Source: Flavobacteriales bacterium
GTDB taxonomy: Bacteria > Bacteroidota > Bacteroidia > UBA10329
Direction of reading: 5' to 3'
Length of the DNA: 46,305 nt
NCBI GenBank assembly: GCA_016124845.1
Contig: WGMW01000013.1
Span: 110,064-156,368, forward strand
In this document: in pieces, positions 13,949 to 46,305 of the stretch
How positions within the stretch are numbered: position 1 is the stretch's first letter
How the letters are laid out: every line of letters starts with the position of its first letter
Translations under genes and position numbers: made by a program
The notes under the pieces: model-generated
What the model saw: only the letters and a program-made list of their open reading frames with translations
What the model was told of the DNA's origin: nothing
Database searches by the model: none

Positions 13949-15229
13949 ATGGAAAAGAAACAATTGCCCATACGGAATGTCATAGCGCTTCTGCTTTTGG
14001 TGGTTATCGGTTTTTTATCGGTGAGAATCTGGCATTTGGAGCGTGAAAAGCGCGAGGTGAACAATGACCTTGTGCATCTTTCAGAGATCCGATATGGACT
14101 TTTTAATGTGGATGAATGGAAGCGCATTATCGTGAACATCATCTCTAAGAACATTGAGGAGTTTGACCTGAATGAACAGGACCGCGAGGCGATGCGAAAG
14201 AAAGTGACGAAGTTTTTGCATTCGCTGATCGATGAGTTCGAGCAACGCTATCACGATCAGGAGCTGCATCGCACAGGTGGGTTTCTGGAACAGGCCAAAG
14301 GTGTGATGCGAAGCGCGGTTGTTTCTGGCACCAAGCTGTTCGACCATCTCCGTGAGGACATTCCTGTGTTTACCGAGGAGATTTTGGATTTTGTGGGAGA
14401 TCCTGAGAATGCGGAAATGTTGAAAGAATACCTGACTGAGAAGTTGGATGAGTATGCCTCAGAGACATTTGCCGAGACGGATTATTCGGAACATGACCGC
14501 ATTGTGGCCAAGTACGTGGCGGAGAACAGGGCGGATGCCATAACCAGAATGAAGGAACGCTTGGCTGCGATAGATAAGGCCAAACAGCCGTATCTGATGG
14601 TCTGGTATCCGCTGGTGGTCGTTTCATTGCTTTTGGTGTTGATCTTTCCGCTGGTCGGGTTGGTTGAACACTTGAGTGTGGTGGGCATCAGCCTGACATT
14701 GCTGTTGCTTGGCCTTACGTTGCCGATGCTGGAGATCGATGCGCGTATCGCCTCCTTGGATTTTCACCTGCTGGGCGAACAGGTGGCCTTTACGGATCAG
14801 GTGGTGTACCACAAATGCAAGAGCATTTTGGAAGTGGTGCATCTGATGCTGGGGCAGAAGGACCTACAGGTGGTCGTGGTTGGTCTGTTGGTACTCCTGT
14901 TCAGCGTAGTGTTTCCAATATTGAAGCTGCTGAGCTGTGTGGCTTACCTGATGTTTCCGCAGATCCGACAGAACCGCGTATTACAATTCTTTGTCTATCG
15001 AACAGGAAAGTGGTCGATGGCGGATGTGTTGGTGGTGGCCATCTTTATGTCATATATCGGCTTTTCGGGCATTCTGAACGAACAGTTGGGTCAATTGCAG
15101 CATATTGCTGTGTCCATCAACCTGCTTACCACCAACAACTCAACCCTGCTTTTCGGCTTCTATGCCTTTGTGAGCTTTGTGCTGATGGGGCTGCTGTTGG
15201 CGTTTCGGTTGCAGCGGTTGGAGGACTAA
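13949..15229 (+). CDS. PqiA-domain inner-membrane protein
   Basis: This 426-residue protein has one N-terminal membrane helix (about 8-25). A helical hydrophilic region of roughly 180 residues follows, with many charged residues (WKRIIVNIISKNIEEF, IDEFEQRYHDQE). Four or five membrane spans follow from about residue 212 to the end. The C-terminal part carries the paraquat-inducible protein A hallmark GKWSMADVLVVAIFMSYI (about 350-367) and PILKLLSCVAYL. PqiA proteins partner with MCE-domain proteins in lipid transport across the envelope, but no MCE gene is present here. A weak -7 box (TATCTTCA) sits at 13928-13935. The stop overlaps that of the convergent PhoH gene. Confidence 0.8.
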   Translation: MEKKQLPIRNVIALLLLVVIGFLSVRIWHLEREKREVNNDLVHLSEIRYGLFNVDEWKRIIVNIISKNIEEFDLNEQDREAMRKKVTKFLHSLIDEFEQRYHDQELHRTGGFLEQAKGVMRSAVVSGTKLFDHLREDIPVFTEEILDFVGDPENAEMLKEYLTEKLDEYASETFAETDYSEHDRIVAKYVAENRADAITRMKERLAAIDKAKQPYLMVWYPLVVVSLLLVLIFPLVGLVEHLSVVGISLTLLLLGLTLPMLEIDARIASLDFHLLGEQVAFTDQVVYHKCKSILEVVHLMLGQKDLQVVVVGLLVLLFSVVFPILKLLSCVAYLMFPQIRQNRVLQFFVYRTGKWSMADVLVVAIFMSYIGFSGILNEQLGQLQHIAVSINLLTTNNSTLLFGFYAFVSFVLMGLLLAFRLQRLED

Positions 15230-45289: not shown

Positions 45290-46018
45290 TCACCGATTCC
45301 GCACGTAAATGACCTTGAACTTGCCGCCCGCCTGCACACGGGCATCAATTTCGAACTGCTTGCTGAGGGAACCGAAAAGCGGTGTGAGCTTGTCGAAACC
45401 GAAGTTGCGGCTATCAAAGTTGGGTTGCTTCTTCAGGATGAGTTTGCCCACATCGCCCATAAATGCCCAGCCGTCCTCATCGGCCGCATCGGCCACCGAG
45501 TTCTTGAGCAGGCGCATTACGTTCGGAGTGATCTTATCCACCTGTCGTTTTTCCCTTTTTCCCTTTTCTCCTTTTTCCTCTTCCGAGTCGAGTATCTCCA
45601 AGTAGATGAACTTGTCGCAGGCCACAATAAAAGGGTTAGGGGTCTTCTTTTCGCCAATGCCGTACACCTGCATGCCTGCCTCGCGCAGGCGGGTGGCCAG
45701 TTTGGTAAAATCGCTGTCGGACGATACGAGGCAGAACCCGTCCACTTTGTCGGAGTAGAGAATGTCCATGGCATCAATGATCATGGCGCTGTCGGTAGCG
45801 TTCTTACCCGAAGTGTAGCTGTACTGCTGTATGGGCGTAATGGCCGTTTCCAGCAGCACCTCCTTCCATTTGCTCACGCGCGGGTTTGTCCAATCGCCAT
45901 AGATGCGTTTGATGGTGGGCGTTCCGTATTTGGTGATCTCCTCCATCATTTCCTTGATGTATTTGCTTGGTATGTTGTCGCCATCGATAAGGACGGCCAG
46001 TTTCGTGTCTTTTGTCAT
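45290..46018 (-). CDS. NYN-domain RNase-like protein with LOTUS (OST-HTH) domain
   Basis: This 242-residue protein has a PIN-like NYN domain (about 1-140): VLIDGDNIPSKYIKE, ATDSAMIIDAMDILYS, and LVSSDSDFTKLATRLREAG carry the acidic metal-binding residues. A charged linker (EEEKGEKGKREKRQ) leads to a C-terminal OST-HTH/LOTUS domain (VMRLLKNSVADAADEDGWAF, DVGKLILKKQPNFDSRNFG). NYN proteins of this LabA-like group are predicted RNases, and LOTUS domains bind RNA. The ATG at 46018 is preferred to one nine codons upstream; it follows a weak -7 box (TACCTTAC) by 4 nt. Confidence 0.9.
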   Translation of the reverse strand: MTKDTKLAVLIDGDNIPSKYIKEMMEEITKYGTPTIKRIYGDWTNPRVSKWKEVLLETAITPIQQYSYTSGKNATDSAMIIDAMDILYSDKVDGFCLVSSDSDFTKLATRLREAGMQVYGIGEKKTPNPFIVACDKFIYLEILDSEEEKGEKGKREKRQVDKITPNVMRLLKNSVADAADEDGWAFMGDVGKLILKKQPNFDSRNFGFDKLTPLFGSLSKQFEIDARVQAGGKFKVIYVRNR

Positions 46019-46030: not shown

Positions 46031-46082
46031 GGATTTAAGGGGCAACTAAAAGACCGAAAGGAAAGAGATCGTGCGGAGTGAC

Positions 46083-46247
46083 CCAACGGTGCGCCTAAAA
46101 GTATTGCGTTTTGAAACTACTGAGTTTTCGAGATACGGGAACGGTGCAGAACGAAACTGAGACTGACTGACGTACCGTCCCACGCAATACTTTTAGGCAT
46201 TGTGCCCGTTGCACAACCCAAATATACCTGTTGAAAACTCAGTTTTC
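46083..46247. repeat. Structured non-coding region with interleaved inverted repeats
   Basis: GCCTAAAAGTATTGCGT (46093-46109) is perfectly complementary to 46182-46198. The pairing resumes beyond a bulge (CAACGG 46084-46089 with CCGTTG 46206-46211), and an inner GGGAACGGT / ACCGTCCC adds a third stem. Separately, CTGAGTTTTC (46120-46129) matches GAAAACTCAG (46233-46242), crossing the first stem. GAAAACT-C-AGTTTTC (46233-46247) is itself a perfect palindrome. No ORF of note lies here. The rest of the right end, to 46305, shows nothing else. Confidence 0.65.
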
Positions 46248-46305
46248 CATGATCTTGACTTTTTGCGCGGTCGGTCCGACCTTCGGTAGATGCAAGGCAA
46301 GAAGA

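Follow-up and report, generated by a model that had tools for sequence, protein, structure and literature searches.

The integrases of described integrons are defined by an additional domain (PMC9668308; PMC2426708), and surveys recognise them by this IntI-specific domain; for Bacteroidetes, the IntegronFinder 2.0 survey of RefSeq complete genomes names In0 noted earlier and one complete integron, in Salinibacter (PMC9024848). Bacteroidota are named among integron carriers in other works (PMC8618304), and one attC of Polaribacter phage P12002L is described as recombining with attI1 by means of IntI1 (PMC9892861). Here we describe a locus in a Flavobacteriales bacterium whose window, by which we mean the whole analysed stretch of 46,305 nucleotides (contig WGMW01000013.1, C13 below), carries at its right end a long inverted repeat that is very probably the last attC-type site of a gene-cassette array, its R'' arm interrupted by an insertion sequence (IS). 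The best reading of this and related arrays is an integron-type system with a non-IntI integrase. It also seems reasonably likely that such systems form a second integron lineage across Bacteroidia, in which cassettes would be captured by XerA-like integrases without the domain regarded as necessary for IntI, with a cassette grammar of their own (GTTR-N6-AATT ... AACT-N6-YAAC) and attI at the integrase 3' end. All of the evidence comes from assemblies, and recombination is deduced from sequence; the integron-type reading draws its odds from the cassette ends and the junctions. Among the open-access literature matches listed, no title or opening of an abstract describes such a system.

The core of the feature is a perfect 17-bp inverted repeat (46093-46109 / 46182-46198), which a first-pass annotation had picked out and which lies well above chance: with up to three mismatches the 17-mer occurs twice in the window, once per arm, against 0.06 expected per shuffled window, and for either strand of 46070-46260 the RNA fold is better than that of any of 200 shuffles (z -4.16 and -3.05). 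The search for further copies that the same annotation had proposed was productive, as BLAST of 46060-46260 found many in the same genome, also on other contigs, and their alignment separates two blocks, one at 46083-46203, which exists in two related types (type 1, GCCTAAAAGTATTGCG..., and type 2, CGCTAAAGATAATGCG...), and a second from 46204 on. The first block is an attC-like site of type 1 on the minus strand, recognised both by its BLAST copies and by a match to covariance model R1 (C13:156149-156266, minus, E 8.6e-27). In gene-strand order such a site runs CCAAC, spacer, L'', variable centre, L', spacer, GTTGG, a layout that we interpret as attC R and L boxes. All parts of the window site lie on the minus strand. 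The outer extension of the repeat, also noted in the first pass, is genuine, since CCAAC at 46083-46087, which reads GTTGG on the minus strand, represents the conserved R' box, placed by the site alignment and by junctions in the congener G004, while the matching R'' box breaks off near 46203. The L' (46093-46109) and L'' (46182-46198) stem arms, given by the inverted repeat and the pairing analysis, enclose the variable central part (46110-46181, from the alignment of copies), and ACAAT at 46199-46203 comprises, by junction comparison, leftover spacer and R'' bases at the insertion point. Owing to the insertion sequence the site is without its outermost R'' bases; since the IS copies are preceded by (T)GT or GT, the 46203/46204 boundary could shift by 1-3 bases. 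Crossover at the window site would fall after the G of the R' box, at 46087.

The gene that lies downstream, beyond R', on the minus strand at 45290-46018, encodes an NYN + OST-HTH/LOTUS protein. It was found in the congeners G002, G003, G004 and G005, in all four of which DNA similarity begins at the start codon, and was not found in G001, G006, G007 and G008 at E<=1e-20; the first bases after the window R' (GTTGGGTCACTC) do not fit the cassette-start rule given below. We take this gene for chromosomal DNA bordering the array on its 3' side, not for a cassette, and the window site for the last of its array; on the upstream side the insertion sequence cuts the array. The window ends with the contig (C13:156368), so nothing past 46305 is readable.

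The covariance model, built from 12 sites, finds 29 places at E<=0.1 on 15 contigs of the same genome (150 of 1350 candidates scored). At E<=0.001 it finds sites in five of the nine genomes of the genus, with 25 in the own genome (G000), 23 in G004, five in G002, four in G008 and two in G003, and none in G001, G005, G006 and G007. A third site type and short sites are also present, as are mixed sites with one type-1 and one type-2 arm (C15i, C8j). The R/L pairs are formed in 86.6% of cells, against 26-40% when slid; cells changed on both sides number nine, against 3.8 in shuffles and 1-3 in slid controls (0 of 500 shuffles reach nine), and the covariation score is 0.125 against 0.061, with none of 500 shuffles as high. 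Support from covariation is nevertheless moderate because neither the number of covarying pairs nor that of pair types exceeds shuffles (118/500 and 140/500) and because some sites mix arm types; one L-box pair is broken in 7 of the 12 rows, all of which are related. Folded as DNA, two of three sites have the better fold on the bottom strand, which is complementary to the genes (z -4.14 vs -2.20 and -4.45 vs -2.35); for site C20j neither strand does better than shuffles. Sites with about 70 extra, hairpin-like centre bases, as in variable terminal structures, lie at L010:755-969 and L019:3332-3547. A contig labelled as a Chryseobacterium gleum MAG (L038, CAMCFW010000365.1) carries the same site type, and there may be a binning or taxonomy problem here. 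A tandem direct repeat of 217 bp, 76% identical, is located at L012:21-465.

The sites in arrays, those of G004 among them, separate single ORFs that run one way. The 36 cassettes delimited by them reduce to 34 unique ones (the contigs L040 and L091 are both 31,242 bp long), and in these the longest ORF is forward in 32 and reverse in one, with no ORF of 60 aa in the remaining one; median ORF coverage is 0.92, with 26.5 nt before and 16.5 nt after the ORF. The first 12 bases of a cassette agree with the reverse complement of its own last 12 in 7.06 of 9 letters, compared with 4.10 for the ends of other cassettes, a match never equalled in 10,000 permutations (0/10,000; 36 cassettes), and only three of the 36 have a weak own-end match (<=5 of 9 positions). 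Start and end are complementary over about 10 bases, about six of them cassette-specific, the usual form being GTTG-N6-AAT at the start (GTTR-N6-AAT overall) and GTTG-N6-AGT at the reverse-complemented end. The published integron core GTTRRRY fits one of the 36 starts. We regard cassette-specific complementary ends as the mark of units that would be excised as circles. An A versus G difference at position 11 of the otherwise complementary ends is frequent across genera.

A candidate integrase is provided by the congener G004, where contig C45 carries a 426-aa tyrosine recombinase at its end. The final 139 bases of C45 are also the exact start of the array contig C16, beginning at GTTGTGG, and this overlap places the integrase directly upstream of the array. 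In contig C9 of G004 these 139 bp come after a type-3 attC, and a single cassette start is preceded in one place by the integrase 3' end (attI) and in another by a further attC, the switch lying exactly at GTTG. With the CCCCTA|GTTG junctions, an attI next to an integrase is seen in relatives and not in the own genome. We take the doubled junction to mean that site-specific recombination has taken place, whether it still goes on in the sampled population or lies in the past and has left two copies; the junction could represent two copies of one cassette rather than a population rearrangement. The same genome has on C33 a further integrase 3' end (94%), where the sequence passes into a different cassette behind CCCCTAGTTG (C33:38680-38848, L128); this is possibly a remnant of a second platform. 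The G004 integrase scores best with the XerA profile NF040815, at 209.2 bits and below the curated cut-off of 220, and obtains 209.1 bits with the IntI profile TIGR02249, whose cut-off is 265. The best PDB matches for its catalytic half are 4a8e and 5hxy, and in the comparison with IntI4 (2a3v) its residues 301-329 face chain residues 179-250, 43 fewer, a gap that presumably lies at the IntI-specific region; the protein is not an integrase with the IntI-specific additional domain.

Homologues of this integrase (E<=1e-42) are present in 147 of 295 sampled Bacteroidia genomes, a number that counts homologues and not integrons because the family also adjoins IS91 transposases in plasmids. Twenty integrase loci were chosen by hand with a view to downstream length. 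Of these, 15 have 3 kb or more downstream, and there exact cassette-end pairs following the integrases amount to 29, compared with 3.9 in shuffles. At least two such pairs, some of which may be chance, occur at six of the 15 loci (L110, L112, L113, L114, L120 and L122), and none or one at the other nine. In L112, L114, L120 and L122 (genomes G054, G083, G091 and G060) the first pair lies 61-114 nt past the integrase match. Sites at integrase loci outside the genus mostly have GTTA cores, and 14 of 39 integrases have an attI-like motif within 120 nt after the stop, where 3.85 are expected from shuffles and two are seen on the reverse strand. Chains of the end pattern, a less strict test than exact pairs, exceed the shuffle maximum in G071 (11 vs 7), G083 (13 vs 4) and the C23 array of G004 (11 vs 3), and barely so in G017 (6 vs 5). 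At the remaining 15 of the 19 loci, among which are G054 (7 vs 7) and the C16 array of G004 (5 vs 6), they do not; since the end pattern reads identically on both strands, the opposite strand is worthless as a control for chains. Cassettes of this kind extend to viral sequence. The IMG/VR contig IMGVR_UViG_3300005613_000097 (L041) contains at ~2422-2934 a single cassette with paired ends GTTGGCAACC/GGTTGCCAAC and this attC, its 149-aa ORF lying beside genes for a Sak-like annealing protein and exonuclease VIII; two further site patterns had no exact match in IMG/VR. In Polaribacter phage P12002L (L168), a cassette-like minus-strand unit at 14622-15197, around P12002L_0024, obeys GTTG-N6-AAT / ACT-N6-CAAC.

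The strongest competing explanation is that the arrays are ordinary integron remnants (CALIN), the work of a classical IntI that the genome has lost or the assembly does not include, and that the XerA-like integrase is a bystander. The own genome fits this description in that it has arrays and no integrase homologue at E<=1e-42, and there are precedents in the literature, as CALIN have been published, the attC of the Polaribacter phage was recombined by IntI1 (PMC9892861), and a review puts Bacteroidota among the phyla with integrons (PMC8618304). We nevertheless consider it unlikely, since the 99 genomes, own included, yielded no TIGR02249 match over the cut-off (stretches were scored, the whole G004 protein separately), contig overlap puts a non-IntI integrase 5' of the G004 array, and exact pairs begin so close behind the integrases of G054, G083, G091 and G060. 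Recombinases of the own genome were considered as the integrase and rejected, that on C49 scoring as XerD, that on C16 of this genome as XerC-like and the pair on C59 as XerC/XerD-like, with no site-model match on C59. The C59 pair adjoin one another and are followed by a further gene, which we take to be IS1595-like (L031:12064-14799).

Much less probable is an origin as dispersed non-coding DNA (MITE, REP/BIME or terminator) that was inserted after genes and is no recombination site. A multicopy dispersed hairpin of ~120 bp is what such a repeat would look like, but the genes on either side run in the same direction, the ends are complementary and cassette-specific, different site families obey the same end rule, and the alternative junctions lie exactly at GTTG.

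The second block, 46204-46305 on the plus strand, is the left end of an IS that runs off the contig, and an identical block of 101-136 bp is found at seven contig ends. Six of the seven abut the outer arm of a recognisable site, always at the same place; the remaining one (C64), in the opposite orientation, follows cassette-end-like sequence and R'', with no further site assembled. A related IS end occupies the same place in G008 (L040), and on C20 a different sequence is joined at the same site position. A possible transposase start lies at 46290, and a longer copy shows the ORF start MQGKKKYSEKLFTSFQ. IS1182 family transposases consist of DUF772 and DDE, and the ORF start MQGKK... suggests an IS1182-like element. 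The transposase search with PF05598 gave no match in the assembled own genome, where ~100-140 bp per IS end are assembled. An rRNA operon edge behind the shared contig ends was rejected, as the assembly has no SSU rRNA match and the ends carry the transposase-like start. The first pass had also described a second 10-bp inverted repeat crossing the first, with a palindromic right half, and had proposed a pseudoknotted RNA or a small mobile element with nested termini. The crossing repeat is present as letters, in fact over 11 bp (46119-46129 with 46233-46243), and its right half is palindromic as stated (GAAAACTCAGTTTTC, 46233-46247), but it joins two different elements, the left arm being in the central part of the site and the right arm in the IS. 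Four of the six IS/site junctions (C19, C42, C43 and C49) are in type-2 sites without ACTGAGTTTTC, and the crossing repeat, absent from them, is therefore probably due to chance; crossing arms as a conserved structure were rejected, the stretch occurring in type-1 sites only. The mobile-element proposal pointed in the right direction, the actual arrangement being a cassette recombination site that holds an insertion sequence, and the covariation that had been suggested as a check gives some support to a simple R/L hairpin. A structured or pseudoknotted RNA would explain folding better than shuffles and is scarcely credible, given zero Rfam matches in the window at gathering scores, a crossing arm missing at those four junctions and a span over two mobile elements.

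In the integron-type system that we favor, the integrase would act on the folded bottom strand, cutting it between G and TT, cassettes would leave and enter as circles, and insertion would occur at an attI overlapping or shortly after the integrase stop codon. In the own genome, arrays persist without a detected integrase of the G004 kind, and the IS has broken the window site. If this is true, a large bacterial class holds a gene-capture system whose integrase escapes current integron definitions, searches that demand the IntI-specific domain would miss it, and its cassettes also occur in phage genomes. It makes testable the question of whether the IntI-specific domain is truly needed for a folded attC or whether a Xer-type enzyme suffices with an extended R box.

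The resemblance to integrons lies in the tandem arrays of mostly one-ORF cassettes in one direction, in attC-like sites with R and L boxes that pair in most cells (pair-count covariation being no higher than in shuffles), in an attI-like site beside a tyrosine integrase with crossover probably at G|TT, and in the more stable bottom strand of two of the three sites tested. Unlike in integrons, the integrase is ~43 residues short at the IntI-specific region and, in G004, is extended by ~120 aa at its N-terminus, it is oriented like the cassettes, the longer R box spans 10-13 bp and often includes one A/G difference, the core is GTTG or GTTA + N6 and not GTTRRRY, and there are several small arrays at many loci. 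The own-genome arrays resemble CALIN in having no detected integrase of the G004 kind, whereas the congener G004 has an adjacent integrase and the sites form families of their own. XerA (NF040815; PDB 4a8e, 5hxy) is closest to the enzyme by profile score and by matches to the catalytic half, but the score is under the cut-off of 220, and the N-terminal extension and the linkage to cassette arrays are differences from XerA. IS1111-attC insertion sequences and group IIC-attC introns insert at a fixed place in attC, and the window IS is like them in its fixed place in attC sites, while, in contrast to IS1111-attC, its MQGKK... start suggests an IS1182-like element.
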